Source: a virus
IMG/VR virus record: IMGVR_UViG_3300042868_004862
Location: 1 to 37,238 of that record
Reading direction: 5' to 3' (one strand)
Length of the DNA stretch: 37,238 nt
Shown here: positions 3,019 to 17,232 of the stretch, in pieces
How the letters are laid out: each line of letters opens with the position of its first letter
Numbering within the stretch: the stretch's first letter is position 1
Translations under genes and position numbers: made by a program
Notes under the pieces: generated by a model
The model's database searches: none
The model's input: the letters and a program-made list of their open reading frames with translations, nothing else
What the model was told of the DNA's origin: nothing

Positions 3019-3539
3019 TGAAAAGGCAATACACAGGTAACAAAGATGGCGCAGCAAAAGGTTTGCGTCCCGGAATGAAAGTGTTCATTGAAGAAGTAAT
3101 TAAACTTGGCAATGGTGCTTTCTGGAACAATGGCGATTTTGGTGTTCGCACTATGCGTGGAAAAGAATCCCTGAGTGTTCATGCAACAGGCAGGGCTGTA
3201 GATTTTTCTTACCGCAACATGGGCAAAGGTAAGGGCGTCCCCAATGGACGCCGCGAGGCTGTACGCATGTGCAAGTTACTTGTTGACAATGCAGACCTGC
3301 TTGGACTAGAAGCATTGTTTGATTATTTCCCAGCACCACACGGTCGTGCATGGATGTGCGATAGAGACGCTTGGTCAAACTACAAGAAGGAAACAATTCA
3401 CGGAGCCCCTAAGGGAGATTGGTTGCATGCGGAAGTTTCTCCAGAGATGGCTGACTCCGCCGAGAAAATGCGGAAAGCATTTGCTCAACTTGTAATTCCC
3501 GCACCTGTGCTTCAGGAAGAAAAATCGAAGCCTGTTTAA
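3018..3539 (+). CDS. M15-type peptidase (endolysin or virion peptidase)
   Basis: The 173-residue product has the zinc-binding pattern of M15 D,D/L,D-peptidases: SVHATGRAVD, with His55 and Asp62, and DWLHAE, with His138 as third ligand. Such enzymes cut peptide bonds in peptidoglycan stem peptides or cross-bridges. The ATG at 3018 is preferred because AAGGAG lies 5-10 bases upstream and the start overlaps the preceding stop as TAATG. No signal peptide is visible, so release would need a holin or the enzyme may be carried in the virion. It is the last gene of the plus-strand late unit. A separate transglycosylase-like lysin lies in the opposite operon. Family assignment is firm; the exact bond cleaved is unknown. 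Confidence 0.85.
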   Translation: MKRQYTGNKDGAAKGLRPGMKVFIEEVIKLGNGAFWNNGDFGVRTMRGKESLSVHATGRAVDFSYRNMGKGKGVPNGRREAVRMCKLLVDNADLLGLEALFDYFPAPHGRAWMCDRDAWSNYKKETIHGAPKGDWLHAEVSPEMADSAEKMRKAFAQLVIPAPVLQEEKSKPV

Positions 3540-10673: not shown

Positions 10674-10795
10674 TTGGTTTTCTCCATGTCTGTTGGTTTA
10701 TGTTTATTGGAACACTGTGGTGTTTTACTTAATGGTAAATAAGTTGTCATAACTTGTTTACACATTTTGCAAATCCAATTCTGTATTTGTTTCAT
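10670..10795 (-). CDS. Very small Cys-rich protein (41 aa)
   Basis: The frame encodes MKQIQNWICKMCKQVMTTYL and then a short tail with CSNKH. The CxxC pair, about 16 residues before Cys-x3-His, resembles a single treble-clef or zinc-ribbon knuckle. It overlaps the WhiB 3' end by 38 bp and the next start by ATGA. The gap between its neighbours and the clean coupling support a real gene, though it is short. Confidence 0.5.
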   Translation of the reverse strand: MKQIQNWICKMCKQVMTTYLPLSKTPQCSNKHKPTDMEKTK

Positions 10796-11021
10796 TACGT
10801 TGATACCTTCCTCTGAGTGTTACCCCACCCCATACTCCCATTGAGCCGGTTTCTAAGCCGTACTCATGGCATTGCTTTTTTACTGAACACGTACTACAAA
10901 TTCTTTTTGCTACTTTGAAGTTAAAGACATCCTCTGCTTTGTCACCTCGCTTTGGAAACCACCATTTGGTTGGTTTCCCATAGCACATAGCACCAATCAT
11001 CCAACTTGCATCAGACATCAT
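10758..11021 (-). CDS. WhiB-family Fe-S transcription regulator
   Basis: The 87-residue product has the four invariant Cys residues that bind a 4Fe-4S cluster (Cys13, then ICSTCSVKKQC giving 42, 45 and 51), followed by the GVWGG turn (62-66) and a basic tail (TLRGRYQRN). WhiB proteins are found only in actinobacteria and their phages. They act by binding region 4 of the principal sigma factor. The host should therefore be an actinobacterium, and the protein may redirect or repress host sigma. It overlaps the upstream 172-residue gene by 11 bp. Confidence 0.93.
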   Translation of the reverse strand: MMSDASWMIGAMCYGKPTKWWFPKRGDKAEDVFNFKVAKRICSTCSVKKQCHEYGLETGSMGVWGGVTLRGRYQRNETNTELDLQNV

Positions 11022-11529
11022 TGTTGCTTATCTTGTTGATGAGCATTGTCATAACTTTCTCGGCAACATCGTTGGCGATGTTGACGGACATCGTGTTGAT
11101 TTTGTCTTGGATGATGTCAGTAATACTCATGTTGTCGTGGATATTTGTGACAGCCGTATTGACCATAGAACGGAACCTGGAATACTCAGTCATCTGGCGC
11201 AGAAAGTCAGGACTATTGAATATTGTTTCGTTGTTTAGGTTCATTGAAAGTACGATGTCACTCATGCTGATATTGTCACCGATACGCCGTGCGATGTCAT
11301 CAGTATCCATCGATTCGATAACCCAATCACGAGTCCTTCGCAGGAAGTCACGAGAATTTTCGAGTGCGCTTGCAACACTCTCAGCATCCGGGATTCTATT
11401 CTCTACGTGCTCGTCAATCTTTTCGCAGATTGTTGTTTCCAATGACTGATTGAATAATGATGGCATTGATGCAGCATCGATTGCTACATCAAACTCCATG
11501 ACTTGCGGGATTAATCTGATAGTTGTCAT
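11011..11529 (-). CDS. Helical hypothetical protein
   Basis: The 172-residue product is almost entirely helical and polar, with repeated Ile/Asn-rich segments (DIARRIGDNISMSDIVLSMN, later DNMSITDIIQDKINTMSVNI). The two I/MSxxDI segments suggest an internal duplication. The start overlaps the amidotransferase stop as ATGA, with AAGGAG upstream. No family is recognised. Its place directly after the amidoligase-amidotransferase pair makes it a candidate substrate or partner, which is inference only. Confidence 0.6.
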   Translation of the reverse strand: MTTIRLIPQVMEFDVAIDAASMPSLFNQSLETTICEKIDEHVENRIPDAESVASALENSRDFLRRTRDWVIESMDTDDIARRIGDNISMSDIVLSMNLNNETIFNSPDFLRQMTEYSRFRSMVNTAVTNIHDNMSITDIIQDKINTMSVNIANDVAEKVMTMLINKISNNDV

Positions 11530-12542
11530 TTTGACAGCTCCTTTGTGTTTGTTGTGTTTTGTAATCCATTAGGTAATCTCAAGCCAGATTCATGGAAGAA
11601 ATCTTCCATACCCAACCAGCAATTACATGCGCCATAGTGTCCACAATGTAGACATGCATCACAGTTAGGACATTCTGTAGGCCAATTTGATTCATCAACT
11701 GTTAAAGCAGTAGCACACGTGTAACATTCCACGAGACTTGTCTCATCGTCAATGTAAGTCATGTAGACCCTGAACTTTTGCATTGCTAATTCTTCTAGGT
11801 CTTCTTGCCAAAGGTCTGCTTCATCGTCATACTCGACTGATGTAACTGGTTTGACATCATGCATTGATATATAGCGTCGGCTCTCATAATCCCATCGCAT
11901 GTTATTGCCCATTGTGTATTCGTATCCGTAATCATCATCATCCCACATAGTTTGTGTAGGTTTGTAGACAGACCTTGCAGCTGCATACTTTTCATACGAT
12001 GAATTAGACCACCACATGTCTTTGTCCCAATGACCGAGATGTGCATTGAGAATGTACCAATGGAACTTAGCATCCTCATTGTGAGTCAAGAACACAAGCT
12101 TGTTACCACCAGCCCACGTCTCCATTTGATTGAAGTATGCCTCATCATCAAGAGAAGTAATACCACCAACAGCTGGCATGATGTCTTCTGCAAAAACTTT
12201 TGTATCGCTACGTTTGTCATTGAGAGGAATCTTGACATCCAAGATTCCGTTATGACCAACAACAGAAGTAGGGTCATTACCGAGTAGAAACGGATGACAG
12301 TTGTCAATCGTCTCTGAACCATGAGTGGCCCATCTGAAGTGGAAAATAGCTGGACCCTTATGTTTCTCACGAGCATCAACAAACTTGTTGGCAACCTCAT
12401 TGAAGTTCATAGAATGCGCTTTTACAAAGCCTTTTGACTCCAAAATAGCAAACCCGAACCCATCACCATTGTTGATAGCTGCTTCTTTGAAGCGTGACAT
12501 ATCCGGCGTTACATCACCTGGCATGAATGTTAGCAAACACAT
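11526..12542 (-). CDS. Class-II glutamine amidotransferase with Cys-rich C-terminus
   Basis: The start is set at ATG 12542 because Cys2 must become the N-terminal nucleophile and GGAAGGGA lies just upstream. From it, the Ntn-type motifs follow in order: MCLLTFMPGD, NNGDGFGF (about 25-31), FHFRWATHG (Arg70, His74) and GHNGIL (97-99). These enzymes release ammonia from glutamine, or make or break gamma-glutamyl amides. The last 60 residues hold many Cys (VECYTCATALTV, then CPNCDACLHCGHYGACNC), probably a double zinc ribbon. The gene follows the amidoligase with a one-base gap, so the two probably act in one amide-forming pathway. The acceptor is unknown. Confidence 0.85.
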   Translation of the reverse strand: MCLLTFMPGDVTPDMSRFKEAAINNGDGFGFAILESKGFVKAHSMNFNEVANKFVDAREKHKGPAIFHFRWATHGSETIDNCHPFLLGNDPTSVVGHNGILDVKIPLNDKRSDTKVFAEDIMPAVGGITSLDDEAYFNQMETWAGGNKLVFLTHNEDAKFHWYILNAHLGHWDKDMWWSNSSYEKYAAARSVYKPTQTMWDDDDYGYEYTMGNNMRWDYESRRYISMHDVKPVTSVEYDDEADLWQEDLEELAMQKFRVYMTYIDDETSLVECYTCATALTVDESNWPTECPNCDACLHCGHYGACNCWLGMEDFFHESGLRLPNGLQNTTNTKELSK

Positions 12543-12543
12543 A

Positions 12544-13638
12544 TTAAACGTCCCTTCCAGTGGATTTGATTTTGACCTTCTCCGAGATACGAACATCGAG
12601 AACCTTGTACTTCTCGTTGTTCAATGTGACCCACTTACGAAACTCTGGGAATGTCAAAGCATTCTTTTGCAGAATATCCTGAGTGGTGATTAGTTCGCTG
12701 TAATGAAACAGTGCGTCGCAGAATTGAAGTGCTACTTTGACTGTTTCTGTTTTCAGCGAAGGACGGAACAATCGTAACTCGATTGTGTTCTCAGGTTGGA
12801 TGTTGACAGCCACACTACGTGACTGATTGCAATCCTCACCCTTAGCCATCTTGATTAGGTTTGTGTGACGAACAAGCTTGCCGTTATCATCAACCCAATC
12901 ACGATGACTATTAAGGAAACGCTTGATGTCATAACTTGCATAGTCATGACTCTCACGACCAGAAAGTTGCACCATCTCAGCACGGTTCTTGTAAACGAAC
13001 GCAATGAACTTGAACTTATGTGCAGTATCAGCGAACGCAGACTTAGCCACGTGAATGTGCAACCCACAACAAGGACGCTTCCAAGCCTCAAAGCCACGCC
13101 TAGCCAACTTCTCGATACCTTTCCACTGGAAGTGATTCATGAAATAGTCCAGCTCACCCGGATGAGAAACAATCTCAAAGCCATTGTAAACAGAACCATC
13201 CTCTTTCAGATAAATGTCTGACTCTGTAGATGAGTTGACATCTGTCAGCAGTTGCTTTGGAATGTCTGGACTGAATGAACTCTCACCGATACATTGCGTC
13301 TCAAGTTCGAAGCCCATAGTCAATGTTGTACGGCTGTCTGAGTAAACATTGCCAGGTATCCGTGAATCCAAGTACCTCACATACGCCGAATGTGTGCCAT
13401 CCGAACGCATAAAAGAAGGACGAGGCTTGTAACTGTAGTTATGAATCGTGCGATAAGACCTGTCATCTCCATCATCATCGTTATCATCATCATCACTGTC
13501 GTAGTAATGGTCAATGATTGCCTCGTGGTGAGACGCACAGAACAACCCATCACGATACTCGTTAGTGTATTCACCTGGCTCTTCGCAGAAGGTTTCATTG
13601 CATGGGTCTATCTCATTGTTTTCGCTATTGACTGGCAT
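12544..13638 (-). CDS. Putative amidoligase (glutamine-synthetase-like fold)
   Basis: The 364-residue product carries the amidoligase signatures: LTMGFELETQ (about 106-115), EDGSVYNGFEIVSHPG (146-161), CCGLHIHV (190-197) and VNIQPENTIELRLFRPS in the C-terminal half. The acidic, His and Arg residues of these strands form the ATP/metal site in the GS-like family, which joins carboxyl and amine groups. An N-terminal Cys/His knuckle (Cys13, Cys18, Cys34, His37) is followed by a long Asp tract. AAGGAG precedes the ATG. Partnership with the adjacent amidotransferase suggests peptide, cell-wall or protein modification during infection. The substrate cannot be read from sequence. Confidence 0.8.
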   Translation of the reverse strand: MPVNSENNEIDPCNETFCEEPGEYTNEYRDGLFCASHHEAIIDHYYDSDDDDNDDDGDDRSYRTIHNYSYKPRPSFMRSDGTHSAYVRYLDSRIPGNVYSDSRTTLTMGFELETQCIGESSFSPDIPKQLLTDVNSSTESDIYLKEDGSVYNGFEIVSHPGELDYFMNHFQWKGIEKLARRGFEAWKRPCCGLHIHVAKSAFADTAHKFKFIAFVYKNRAEMVQLSGRESHDYASYDIKRFLNSHRDWVDDNGKLVRHTNLIKMAKGEDCNQSRSVAVNIQPENTIELRLFRPSLKTETVKVALQFCDALFHYSELITTQDILQKNALTFPEFRKWVTLNNEKYKVLDVRISEKVKIKSTGRDV

Positions 13639-14302: not shown

Positions 14303-14752
14303 TCAGAGTGGGTTGAACGATTTCTTTGGCACAACCGTCTTAGCATTGCTGTTGTCAATATCAACAACCTTTGCACCGATGTCCAACATACCGAGAGGCG
14401 ATACATATTTCACGTATTCACCAGTCTCATCTATGTAACCTTCCTGCAACTCTGCAGGATAAGTTTCACCCGCTTCGTTAAGCATCTCAACTTTTGCTAC
14501 CGAGTCGTATGCGTTGGCTCGTGCAATTGAAGTTGCTTCGAATGAGATAACCGAGCCTGGTGCAATACCAAGTTTGGCAATCTTGATGTTGTTCATCCAC
14601 ACTTGCCATTGGACATTGTCCTTGTTGGCAACGAACTGGACGAACCTGCCTTTACCGCCATTACCGTTGCTAATTTTAGCAACTGTCAATGGATATGTTT
14701 CAACGGTCTGGGTCGTAACCTCAGCCGTTTTGGTCGCTGTTGATGCTTTCAT
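14303..14752 (-). CDS. Hypothetical protein, paralogue of the 15974-16402 product
   Basis: The 149-residue product has a Thr-rich N-terminus (MKASTATKTAEVTTQTVETY) followed by a globular domain: GRFVQFVANKDNVQWQVW, then GSVISFEATSIARA, and finally LDIGAKVVDIDNS ending FNPL. The gene at 15974-16402 encodes the same arrangement (KFVRFVANK, YQVW, GSVLAL, LDMALKVVGCDNS, FNPL), so the two arose by duplication. The beta-rich pattern could be an OB-like or small binding fold, but nothing catalytic is visible. A variant of the block leader (AGAAAAGGA) precedes the ATG. Confidence 0.65.
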   Translation of the reverse strand: MKASTATKTAEVTTQTVETYPLTVAKISNGNGGKGRFVQFVANKDNVQWQVWMNNIKIAKLGIAPGSVISFEATSIARANAYDSVAKVEMLNEAGETYPAELQEGYIDETGEYVKYVSPLGMLDIGAKVVDIDNSNAKTVVPKKSFNPL

Positions 14753-14800
14753 GTTTTTTCCTTTTCTATTGTTTGTGAATATTTATTATGTGAGGGGATT

Positions 14801-14828
14801 CAACGCCCCGCGCAAGCAGGGGGCGTTG
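14801..14828. other. Intergenic GC-rich hairpin
   Basis: CAACGCCCC (14801-14809) pairs perfectly with GGGGCGTTG (14820-14828) across a ten-base loop. It lies between the end of one minus-strand gene (14840) and the ribosome site of the next (14752). Like the hairpins at 14250 and 15430 it lacks a U-tract. Confidence 0.7.
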
Positions 14829-14839
14829 GAGACCCACAC

Positions 14840-15128: not shown

Positions 15129-15392
15129 TTAGTAATAAAGCTGAACTGATTCTTCACCGTATTGCGGATACCTATCCTCCGAGTAATCATCATCTTGCTC
15201 ATATGATGGCAACGCTACATCTAAGTCATGATTTACCAGATGTGCGTTATCACGTGCATCTTCCTCCTGCTGCTTAGCCATTTCCTCTGAAACACCATTA
15301 ATCATATTCTGATATGCATATGACGCTGAAGCGTAAGGATTACTAGCACTTTTACGTTTTGCTAACGGAAGATTATTAAAATCAATTTCCAT
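15129..15392 (-). CDS. Small acidic hypothetical protein
   Basis: The 87-residue product starts MEIDFNNLPLAKRKSASNPY. The ATG at 15392 is preceded by AAAAGGAGA, which decides the start over a longer frame reading through the GC hairpin. The protein looks disordered, with a Tyr- and Asp-rich tail (SYEQDDDYSEDRYPQYGEES). It is the first gene on the downstream side of the hairpin-array region. No family is recognised. Confidence 0.5.
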   Translation of the reverse strand: MEIDFNNLPLAKRKSASNPYASASYAYQNMINGVSEEMAKQQEEDARDNAHLVNHDLDVALPSYEQDDDYSEDRYPQYGEESVQLYY

Positions 15393-15429
15393 TTTATTTT
15401 CTCCTTTTCTTTTTCTCTCGCAGGGCTGA

Positions 15430-15454
15430 GGCGCCCCGCCAACAGGGGGGCGCC
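15430..15454. other. Intergenic GC-rich hairpin
   Basis: GGCGCCCC (15430-15437) pairs with GGGGCGCC (15447-15454) around a nine-base loop, just upstream of the ribosome site of the 15392 gene. It is the third of a set of similar hairpins placed before genes in this block. No T-tract follows on either strand. Confidence 0.7.
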
Positions 15455-15539
15455 GAAGCGCAAGAGACTGAATACTTTCCACTAGCCCATCCGACTCTTT
15501 ATCTATTAAAGTTTTATTATTTCGTTATCGGTATCGGTG

Positions 15540-15922
15540 TCATTGCTTGAATGTTTTTGGGCTGGTAGGGATGTCCGCTCACACGGAAACATGGGGGGTG
15601 AGTAGACAAGGGGGCAAGTACGACAGTAGTGGGCGAACTTAGGAGTGAACGCAAAGCGTTCGTGAGTAAGTTCGCTCAGGGGGTTAAATGGATAATCGAG
15701 CTTTGCGAGATTCCATTTATCAGTTCGGACCCGAAGGGTCCGGCACGAGGCAGCTTCGCTGCCGAGAGAACAGGGTCGGCGGGAGCCGACTCAGTTCGGG
15801 GTTAGCGAGCGTAGCGAGCACGAGGCCGTAGGCCGAGAAGGGTGAATGCGCGAGAGCGCATTCGGACAATAGCGAGCGAAGCGAGCGTCAAATTCGCCGC
15901 GGAGCGGCGAATTTTTTTTTTT
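15540..15922 (+). ncRNA. Candidate structured non-coding RNA (hairpin chain), plus strand
   Basis: A chain of perfect or near-perfect stems follows in close order. A long two-part stem at 15633-15675 holds GAACGC-AAA-GCGTTC as its tip. Then come AAATGG/CCATTT (15686-15718), CGGACCC-GAA-GGGTCCG (15726-15742), GGCAGC-TTC-GCTGCC (15749-15763), GTCGGC-GGGA-GCCGAC (15775-15790) and GAATGCGC-GAGA-GCGCATTC (15844-15863). The chain finishes in an intrinsic terminator at 15890-15922. The T-tract direction sets the strand as plus, opposite to all flanking genes. The 5' end is not defined: no good promoter was found, so the start given is a guess. No known RNA class is recognised. Confidence 0.55.
15890..15922 (+). 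terminator. Strong intrinsic terminator, plus strand
   Basis: An 11-bp perfect stem (15890-15900 with 15904-15914) closed by a GGA loop runs straight into 11 consecutive T (15912-15922). On the minus strand there is an A-run before the stem and no U-run after it, so the signal is directional. No plus-strand gene precedes it for 12 kb. Confidence 0.88.
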
Positions 15923-15928
15923 ACAAAG

Positions 15929-15962
15929 AACGACCCCCAACCCTCACGGGCTGGGGGTCGTT
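15929..15962 (-). terminator. Terminator hairpin after the 15974-16402 gene
   Basis: AACGACCCCCA (15929-15939) pairs with TGGGGGTCGTT (15952-15962), and CCC/GGG can pair inside the loop. It starts 11 bases after the stop of the minus-strand gene, and the minus-strand sequence after it is TTCTTTGT, a moderate T-rich tail. It would partly insulate that gene from the downstream block. Confidence 0.65.
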
Positions 15963-15973
15963 CTCGCTTTTCC

Positions 15974-16402
15974 CTAGAGAGGGTTAAAGGCTTTCAGGAC
16001 TCTCACGCCTGAATTGTCGCAACCGACAACTTTCAACGCCATATCTAGATTCTGTCGTGGGTTCGGATACTTGAAGATTTTTCCCTCGCTGTTCGTGTAT
16101 TCGTACACAATGGGCGAAGGTGTTTCGTTCCCTTCTGCGTCAAGTACGAGTGCGCCGTTTTTGTAGTGGCTAGCAATTGCTACCGTTTCAGGGTCAAGGG
16201 CAAGCACCGAGCCGATTTGGATATTCAGCGATTGGATAACGCTGTTCCTAATCCAAACTTGGTAGGCGATTGGGGTCTTGGCTTTGTTCGCTACGAACCG
16301 AACAAATTTACCTTTACTTGTCTCCGAGCCTTCCACGCTTGCGACTTTCATCTTGTACGGTTCGGGCGTGGCTGGTGTTTGGGTTTTCGTTTGTGTTTTT
16401 AT
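15974..16402 (-). CDS. Hypothetical protein, paralogue of 14303-14752, apparent ATA start
   Basis: The domain KGKFVRFVANK, YQVWIRNSVIQSLNIQIGSV, LDMALKVVGCDNS, ending FNPL, parallels the product of 14303-14752. The first in-frame ATG (16349-16351) would give 125 residues but lacks a ribosome site and removes the Thr/Pro-rich N-terminus seen in the paralogue. The shared CAGAAAAGAGA leader (16408-16418) ends five bases before an in-frame ATA at 16402-16400, the same spacing as at 14227 and 15100. No ATG, GTG or TTG lies between. So translation starts at ATA (142 residues), or the ATG was recently mutated. Function unknown. Confidence 0.6.
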   Translation of the reverse strand: MKTQTKTQTPATPEPYKMKVASVEGSETSKGKFVRFVANKAKTPIAYQVWIRNSVIQSLNIQIGSVLALDPETVAIASHYKNGALVLDAEGNETPSPIVYEYTNSEGKIFKYPNPRQNLDMALKVVGCDNSGVRVLKAFNPL

Positions 16403-16641: not shown

Positions 16642-16671
16642 ATTTTAGGCACACGCTCGGCGCTGTGTCAA
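16642..16671 (-). promoter_or_regulatory. Main early promoter, minus strand
   Basis: On the minus strand TTGACA (16671-16666) and TAAAAT (16647-16642) are separated by 18 bases, the same spacing as the promoter at 9015-9044. The start point would be near 16635, about 40 bases before the first small gene. It should be read by the host vegetative sigma factor and drive the accessory and amidoligase block. Confidence 0.85.
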
Positions 16672-16700: not shown

Positions 16701-16736
16701 GTTAGGCAAGCCTAACTAATGTAAGGCAAGCCTAAC
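16701..16736. promoter_or_regulatory. Two tandem palindromic operators, iron-box-like
   Basis: GTTAGGCAAGCCTAAC (16701-16716) and GTAAGGCAAGCCTAAC (16721-16736) are 16-base near-palindromes exactly 20 bp apart, so they face the same side of the helix. They lie 30 bp upstream of the -35 box. TTAGG-N4-CCTAA is the core of DtxR/IdeR operators in actinobacteria. The location, about 65-100 bases before the start point, suits activation or looping better than simple blocking. Binding by a host iron regulator or by a phage protein are both possible. Confidence 0.6.
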
Positions 16737-16985
16737 ACGAACGGCTGTTCGCCCCCTTACTTCAAGAGCCGTGGGTTATGGCTCCCCACATATGTATTCA
16801 AGTCGTAAACCGTAAGTCAGTTTAGGAGCAAAGTGGGAAAAGTCAGGTATCAATAGACCAACAGGTTCCCGAACAACCAAACCTGTGACACAACAACCAA
16901 ACTAGAGACACGGACAACAAGACCTAAACACGCAGGTCACAAGACAAGCACAACAGACAGAGCAAGAAGCACACGGATAGGGGCG

Positions 16986-17026
16986 ACGCTAGTTAGCGTT
17001 GACCCGATGCCAATGGGTAGCATAAC
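16986..17026 (+). promoter_or_regulatory. Palindrome abutting a weak plus-strand promoter-like site
   Basis: ACGCTA-GT-TAGCGT (16986-16999) is a perfect palindrome with a two-base centre. Its last base begins TTGACC (16999-17004), followed after 16 bases by CATAAC (17021-17026). This could be an operator-controlled plus-strand promoter leading towards the late genes, but the -10 match is poor and the transcript would run antisense to two minus genes. Confidence 0.3.
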
Positions 17027-17232
17027 ACACTCAGTTTCTTGAGGGGGGGGACTTGGACTGGATGCTAGTACCAGCAAGGGTCGCAGTAGGTGACCCTGTG
17101 TACAGGGGGGGCAGGTGGGGGGTAGGGGTATGTAGAGAAAGGGATGGTATCTGCGCAGGGCGAGAGCGTTCTCCCAAAACATAGGGGGGGGTGCTAAAGA
17201 ATAGGGTACCTTAATTAAAGATAATATGAAAA

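Follow-up and report, generated by a model that had tools for sequence, protein, structure and literature searches.

Known hairpin arrays and the present locus

CsrB/RsmZ-type sponge RNAs, which sequester CsrA/RsmA, are composed of a chain of small hairpins with an intrinsic terminator at the end. REP/BIME/REPIN elements are intergenic hairpins with strand-specific single-stranded features and are often arrayed; the recognition of REP hairpins is confined to one of the two DNA strands, and REP/REPtron palindromes are defined by a directly preceding GTAG or similar tetranucleotide (PMC8266576). Strand-specific intergenic hairpin arrays are an already known kind of element, and the chain of ten hairpins (H1 to H10) described here is a new form of them. 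It was found in the window, i.e., the whole 37,238-base stretch of DNA analysed, which corresponded to IMG/VR virus record IMGVR_UViG_3300042868_004862 and had a 253-base end repeat with one mismatch.

Compared to CsrB/RsmZ, the chain was similarly a run of small hairpins closed by an intrinsic terminator, without notable coding capacity, but it did not show the repeated A(N)GGA that CsrB/RsmZ have in most loops: GGA was present in only two of the ten loops, those of H5 (GGGA) and H10 (GGA). We know of no use of CsrA by the phage or its probable actinobacterial host.

Compared to REP/BIME/REPIN, the chain was likewise intergenic, arrayed, and strand specific, but its stems were not repeated in the genome and it ended in an RNA terminator. 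A DNA-level palindrome array (REP/BIME-like or another intergenic repeat), with the plus strand acting as ssDNA without a dedicated RNA (e.g., as the target of a hairpin-binding protein, a replication by-product, or a mobile-repeat remnant), is in our view a rather unlikely reading. It is favored by the one-strand recognition that REP hairpins likewise display (PMC8266576), but it is opposed by four features: (i) the chain stems differed from each other (only H6 and H9 had one in common), unlike mobile-repeat copies; (ii) no GTAG stood directly before any of H1 to H10; (iii) the chain ended in a canonical RNA terminator; and (iv) no TnpA_REP (Y1 HUH) transposase was detected among the 19 proteins of the phage window scanned against Pfam.

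Phage genome and setting

Minus-strand genes spanned about 3.4 to 16.6 kb of the window, and this early region encoded an AEP-type primase, a DnaB-like helicase, a PD-(D/E)XK nuclease, and a WhiB-type transcription regulator (10758-11021, minus strand); two more small minus-strand genes were located at 17.2-18.0 kb, and the predicted structural genes were on the plus strand from 18.1 kb on. A WhiB-type regulator points to an actinobacterial host, and the phage probably infects actinobacteria; its group, of which related members (L numbers below) were collected via terminase and capsid, is a common one of uncultured, probably freshwater actinophages. All genes neighboring the chain ran opposite to it, and the last plus-strand gene to its left ended at 3539, in agreement with an earlier note on this DNA that had found no plus-strand gene for 12 kb.

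Three further features of the minus-strand region were recorded: (i) neighboring genes at 11526-13638 (minus strand) with glutamine amidotransferase class-II (sub-threshold) and amidoligase domains, a pair unusual for a phage early region; (ii) a GC-rich hairpin of about 40 bases in front of most early minus genes (e.g., 14800-14830 and 15430-15454), varying in sequence, conserved in placement, also present in L007, L014, and L192, and possibly acting as an mRNA 5' stabiliser; and (iii) two tandem inverted repeats TTAGGCAAGCCTAA / TAAGGCAAGCCTAA at 16702-16735, directly upstream of a predicted minus promoter (16671-16642), which resemble actinobacterial DtxR/IdeR iron boxes.

Anatomy of the hairpin chain

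The chain was located between two genes at 15634-15914, and the array length of about 230 bases given earlier had to be corrected to about 280. It was preceded by a G-rich stretch (15551-15633, plus strand) starting with GAATGTTTTTGGGCTGGTAGGG, which by eye looked like the GTTTTGACCTGGTG motif of the relatives. The ten hairpins, all read on the plus strand, were as follows: H1 (15634-15674), a long bulged hairpin with loop AAA and outer stem CGAACTTA/TAAGTTCG; H2 (15686-15718), with a tandem G.A mismatch and loop TTT; H3 (15726-15742), with a 7-bp stem and loop C(GAA)G; H4 (15749-15763), with a 6-bp stem and loop TTC, the sole hairpin having a GNA loop on the minus strand; H5 (15775-15790), with a 6-bp stem and tetraloop C(GGGA)G; H6 (15805-15819), GCGAGC(GTA)GCGAGC, and H7 (15821-15837), CGAGGCC(GTA)GGCCGAG, both with a tandem G.A mismatch; H8 (15844-15863), with an 8-bp stem and tetraloop C(GAGA)G; H9 (15872-15886), GCGAGC(GAA)GCGAGC, again with a tandem G.A mismatch; and H10 (15890-15922), with an 11-bp stem at 15890-15914 and loop C(GGA)G, running into a T-run that extended to 15922. 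H6, H7, H9, and part of H2 needed tandem G.A mismatches and thus were not perfect Watson-Crick stems.

H10 plus the T-run constituted an intrinsic (rho-independent) terminator on the plus strand only, with a GC-rich stem directly before the T-run, which bore out the strictly plus-strand terminator claimed before. The 11-bp stem and the 11 consecutive T (15912-15922) were also both as described, although the T-run did not wholly follow the stem: three T were inside it and 8 came after it.

Perfect stems of 6-11 bp with loops of 3-4 were found in six of the ten hairpins, compared to an average of 0.2, and 2 at most, in 2000 dinucleotide shuffles of 15625-15925, so that a chain of six or more mostly perfect small-loop stems was indeed present. 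These shuffle controls, together with a coherent loop pattern not expected of an artefact, make chance or an assembly artefact extremely improbable, even with the chain known from a single metagenomic virus record and with no second copy in the collections searched.

The earlier note had recognised no known class, and Rfam (4227 models, release 15), searched at gathering and relaxed thresholds, likewise gave no match (best sub-threshold score of 20.4 bits vs a threshold of 60). Phage records and plasmids, searched by DNA similarity, contained nothing like the chain, and blastn with 7-base words against all relatives collected matched the spacer hairpin at 15405-15467 and not the chain. Because no homologue of the chain was found in the collections searched, there was no covariation to be had for the chain itself.

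Strand of folding

The fold of 15625-15925 on the plus strand had an energy of -137.2 kcal/mol (z -8.1; z -6.2 for 15540-15930), and the minus-strand fold reached z -9.7. Both strands thus folded better than shuffles, and therefore fold energy alone could not choose the strand; loop types and the T-run did. GNA/GNRA loops and tandem G.A mismatches are both exceptionally stable, and GNA triloops characterise very stable hairpins of DNA no less than those of RNA. On the plus strand, seven hairpins had a C(GNA)G or C(GNRA)G loop, and on the minus strand one had, compared to shuffle means of 0.035 and 0.004, respectively, and a maximum of 1 in 2000 shuffles. Tandem G.A/A.G mismatches in 5'-CGAG context were found in H2 (inner part), H6, H7, and H9, all on the plus strand; on the minus strand, these positions would become C.T mismatches. 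The unpaired bases on the plus strand were G 40, A 38, T 18, and C 5 (77% purine), and those read on the minus strand were C 75, T 55, A 44, and G 14.

As judged from sequence features, the plus strand is the chosen folding strand by three independent signs, namely, terminator, loop identity, and tandem G.A mismatches. The loops, mismatches, and unpaired-base bias on this strand point to a design that serves a folded, single plus strand, and the T-run argues for that strand being RNA, with ssDNA still compatible.

The minus-strand counterpart of this reading would be a C-rich 3' tail of the 15974-16351 transcript, its hairpins acting in minus RNA as a Rho-type or back-up terminator, or as an attenuator, ahead of the leftward promoter. 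The unpaired-base composition on the minus strand is as expected of a Rho loading region; however, the T-run was present on the plus strand only, the G..A form of loops and mismatches appeared on the plus strand in 7/8 hairpins and is not required by a simple pyrimidine-rich tail, and the minus gene already has a hairpin terminator at 15928-15963. A minus-strand tail is therefore judged improbable.

Flanking genes and signals

The gene to the right of the chain (15974-16351, minus strand) was a paralogue of 14303-14752 (minus strand); the two encoded small beta-rich proteins 37% identical to each other and without family matches, and each of the relatives searched harbored one copy of this putative SSB gene vs two in the window. 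Searches of the 15974-16351 product against Pfam and PHROG gave no match, and Foldseek matched its AlphaFold model (pLDDT 66) only weakly to SSB proteins (E about 0.5), because of which the identity as a putative OB-fold ssDNA-binding protein is a lead only. A long hairpin (15928-15963, minus strand) was located directly 3' of this gene and convergent with the plus terminator, the terminators of the two convergent units (15890-15922 and 15928-15963) standing back to back.

Two minus-strand promoters were predicted by a scan whose total number of promoters found was no higher than chance expectation: TTGACA-18-TAAAAT (16642-16671; 11/12 matches) for the unit ending at 15928 and ATGACA-16-AATAAT (15516-15543; 10/12 matches) for the leftward genes. 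No sigma-70-type plus promoter upstream of the chain exceeded the scan threshold; TATTAT at 15515-15520 (plus strand), not called by the scan, was read by eye as a weak -10 candidate for a divergent plus transcript, without a good -35. Farther left were the leader motif TCGGATGGG (15486-15494, minus strand), found at the same place in L190, L191, L192, L218, and L217, and, between this motif and gene 15129-15392 (minus strand), a spacer hairpin (15430-15454, minus strand) of the type that precedes many early genes of this phage family. The leader motif in the relatives was located between the next gene and their hairpin element (see below).

Composition and origin of the module

GC content was 0.57 in the chain vs about 0.40-0.46 to its left; contrary to the earlier claim, the rise was not confined to the chain, GC staying at 0.48-0.54 rightward to about 17 kb and reaching 0.53 at 20-20.5 kb. 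The GC3 values of the two genes right of the chain were 0.56 and 0.68 vs 0.30-0.51 elsewhere, and the 15.54-16.6 kb module was a compositional outlier in the phage. Such high GC and GC3 in the chain and its two right-hand genes suggest acquired DNA, and this outlying composition and the absence of the chain sequence from near relatives are points in favor of the DNA-level palindrome array. The window GC skew switched sign at about 15.5 kb; an origin of replication at the chain was considered and rejected, the relatives having no GC-skew sign change at their element.

Element of the relatives at the same locus

The sequence comparison covered relatives L190, L193, L218, L191, L196, and L192, which carried the same gene family and a different noncoding hairpin element 3' of the putative SSB gene. 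This element was composed of motif GTTTTGACCTG and four hairpins (HA, HB, HC, and HD); in some relatives, GTTTTGACCTG was itself preceded by another hairpin, H0. Its alignment (five sequences) kept 27/27 pairs in all rows, with three pairs changed on both sides, compared to 30-46% paired in slid-alignment controls; covariance model R1 built from the element found the left-out L192 at 25.3 bits.

The chain and the element of the relatives were alike in place (each between leader motif TCGGATGGG and the 3' hairpin of the gene), in having several small hairpins, in a mostly better folding in the window-plus direction, and in a C(GTA)G hairpin (HC), but the latter contained four or five hairpins instead of ten, had different sequences, and lacked a T-run. 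In a survey of 83 gaps, the four strongest folding included window gap 15483-15973 and its homologues in L190 and L193, each of which folded better in the window-plus direction; L192 was an exception, the reverse complement of its element folding slightly better.

The position is common to the two, and homology was not demonstrated by model R1, which scored 13.5 bits on the window chain (E 0.025 over the 37-kb window) and up to 14.5 bits on unrelated hairpin arrays, from which the model therefore did not distinguish the chain. A fast-diverging homologue of the relatives' element (H0-HA-HB-HC-HD) with inserted hairpins, an origin that is compatible with RNA, is a tentative possibility on the unlikely side. 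It agrees with (i) the shared place, bordered by leader motif TCGGATGGG and, at the opposite end, by a gene of the same family with its terminator hairpin, (ii) the H1 outer stem GAACTTA/TAAGTTC, found again in L190, and (iii) the in-order alignment by R1 of four chain hairpins on the plus strand at 15769-15866. Besides the equally high scores of unrelated arrays, it is opposed by the order of motifs (GTTTTGACCTG comes after H0 in the relatives, and the similar motif comes before H1 in the window) and by the window gene being a second paralogue.

Hairpin-dense regions in L028, L196, L194, L202, and L203 were also inspected and set aside, being for the most part coding sequence or the usual spacers.

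Another plus-oriented noncoding element, rich in G and conserved among relatives, was recorded at 16960-17216 (plus strand), with copies in L190 (6896-7135, minus strand), L191 (about 11310-11640, plus strand), L194 (2322-2564, plus strand), L214 (1824-2070, minus strand), L217 (1559-1793, minus strand), and L158. It displayed the core GATGGTATCTGC[T/G]CAGGGCGAGAGC, the end GGGTACC(10 nt)GGTACC, and runs of 5-9 G that could form G-quadruplexes; its core recalls a tRNA D-arm, with no match by ARAGORN or Rfam. In several relatives, a GTTTTGACCTGGTG-like motif stood before it, as for the element 3' of the putative SSB gene.

Similar arrays in other viruses and bacteria

The doublet GCGAGCGNAGCGAGC-N40-70-GCGAGCGNAGCGAGC, present in the chain at 15805-15886, was found in 30 viral contigs, for which the chance estimate is well below one, repeats being not independent and several contigs being near-copies. 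Bacteria and archaea had it in at least 119 stretches, a large share of them actinobacterial. Every viral locus retrieved carried the GCGAGCGNAGCGAGC motif on one strand only, and among the other perfect triloop hairpins within 400 bases of viral GCGAGCGNAGCGAGC (n=60), GNA loops were found on the motif strand in 20 and on the opposite strand in 5; further same-strand C(GNA)G palindromes thus accompanied the motif in these arrays as in the window (7 vs 1). Such arrays resembled the chain in that a single strand carried the tandem-GA/GNA hairpins, interspersed with further C(GNA)G palindromes such as GAGGCCGCAGGCCGAG, a whole unit common to the chain and the L237 array, but they had unrelated hosts and neighbors, and many bacterial ones were near-tandem copies of one unit, often 44-60 bp apart. 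The occurrence of the doublet in such repeat arrays of bacterial chromosomes again speaks for a DNA-level array.

The gene beyond the 3' side of the motif was on the opposite strand, as in the window, at 19/27 viral loci (not all independent) and at 25/32 intergenic sites of one Oligoflexales chromosome; this arrangement would suit the minus-strand tail, but it was present in only 8/23 intergenic sites of a mixed bacterial sample. Two other candidate patterns were rejected: (i) a replication-strand bias of the motif, suspected from forward-only matches among those listed for the Oligoflexales chromosome and refuted by 20 sampled stretches, in which both strands were represented, forward matches simply heading the list; and (ii) the motif as a general actinobacterial feature, its distribution being patchy (38/100 actinobacterial genomes, few exceeding the reversed-pattern control and most near it). 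A literature search for 13-mer variants of the motif retrieved nothing related, and the literature searched contained no description of unrelated phages keeping their GNA/tandem-GA hairpins on the same strand.

The chain hence does not stand alone: other viruses, and bacteria too, have similar arrays with hairpins coherent in strand, and the relatives have another hairpin element at its place.

Proposed RNA and its meaning

The earlier interpretation of the locus as a dedicated structured plus-strand RNA is partly supported: a folded plus strand with a plus-only terminator, running opposite to all neighboring genes and matching no Rfam family, agrees with it, and the locus is a candidate for a dedicated RNA gene. 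To judge from the letters of the DNA, the chain is designed to fold as a single strand, and its transcription is suggested by the terminator. We give about an even chance to the chain being the folded 3' part of a plus-strand RNA of about 0.4 kb, convergent with the neighboring minus gene. In favor of it are the plus-only terminator, the loop and mismatch bias, the adjoining terminators of the two convergent units, the conserved hairpin element of the relatives at the same locus, and the strand-coherent viral arrays; against it are the negative scan for a sigma-70-type plus promoter upstream, the negative searches for a homologue of the chain, the inability of R1 to separate the chain from unrelated arrays, the fact that GNA triloops are also typical of DNA hairpins, and the better-than-shuffle folding of both strands. 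The start of this RNA would lie in the AT-rich gap near 15.51-15.56 kb, with transcription running away from that of the leftward promoter and TATTAT at 15515-15520 as a possible -10; its end would be the T-run (15922), directly facing the terminator hairpin of the minus gene that converges on it. The mini-hairpins, with their C(GNA)G or C(GNRA)G loops and tandem G.A mismatches, need a single plus strand to be stable, and the chain takes the place of the other hairpin element at a conserved position. The plus RNA would most likely be nuclease-resistant and bind a protein or separate two transcription units; it may accordingly act as a stable scaffold, a decoy, or an insulator between the two minus units. 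We consider it doubtful that the chain, as the most elaborate member in its phage family, belongs to an undescribed class of plus-sense phage RNAs with chained GNA-loop/tandem-GA mini-hairpins that would serve as nuclease-resistant protein-binding scaffolds or decoys in phages and in bacteria of several phyla.

The loop and mismatch signature, which connects unrelated phages, is a simple and testable rule by which such arrays may be found and their folding strand told. If transcribed, the chain would add a structured RNA with no Rfam family to a common group of uncultured, probably freshwater actinophages; even if it acts as DNA, the strand coherence of GNA/tandem-GA hairpins across unrelated phages is an observation with no counterpart in the literature searched.
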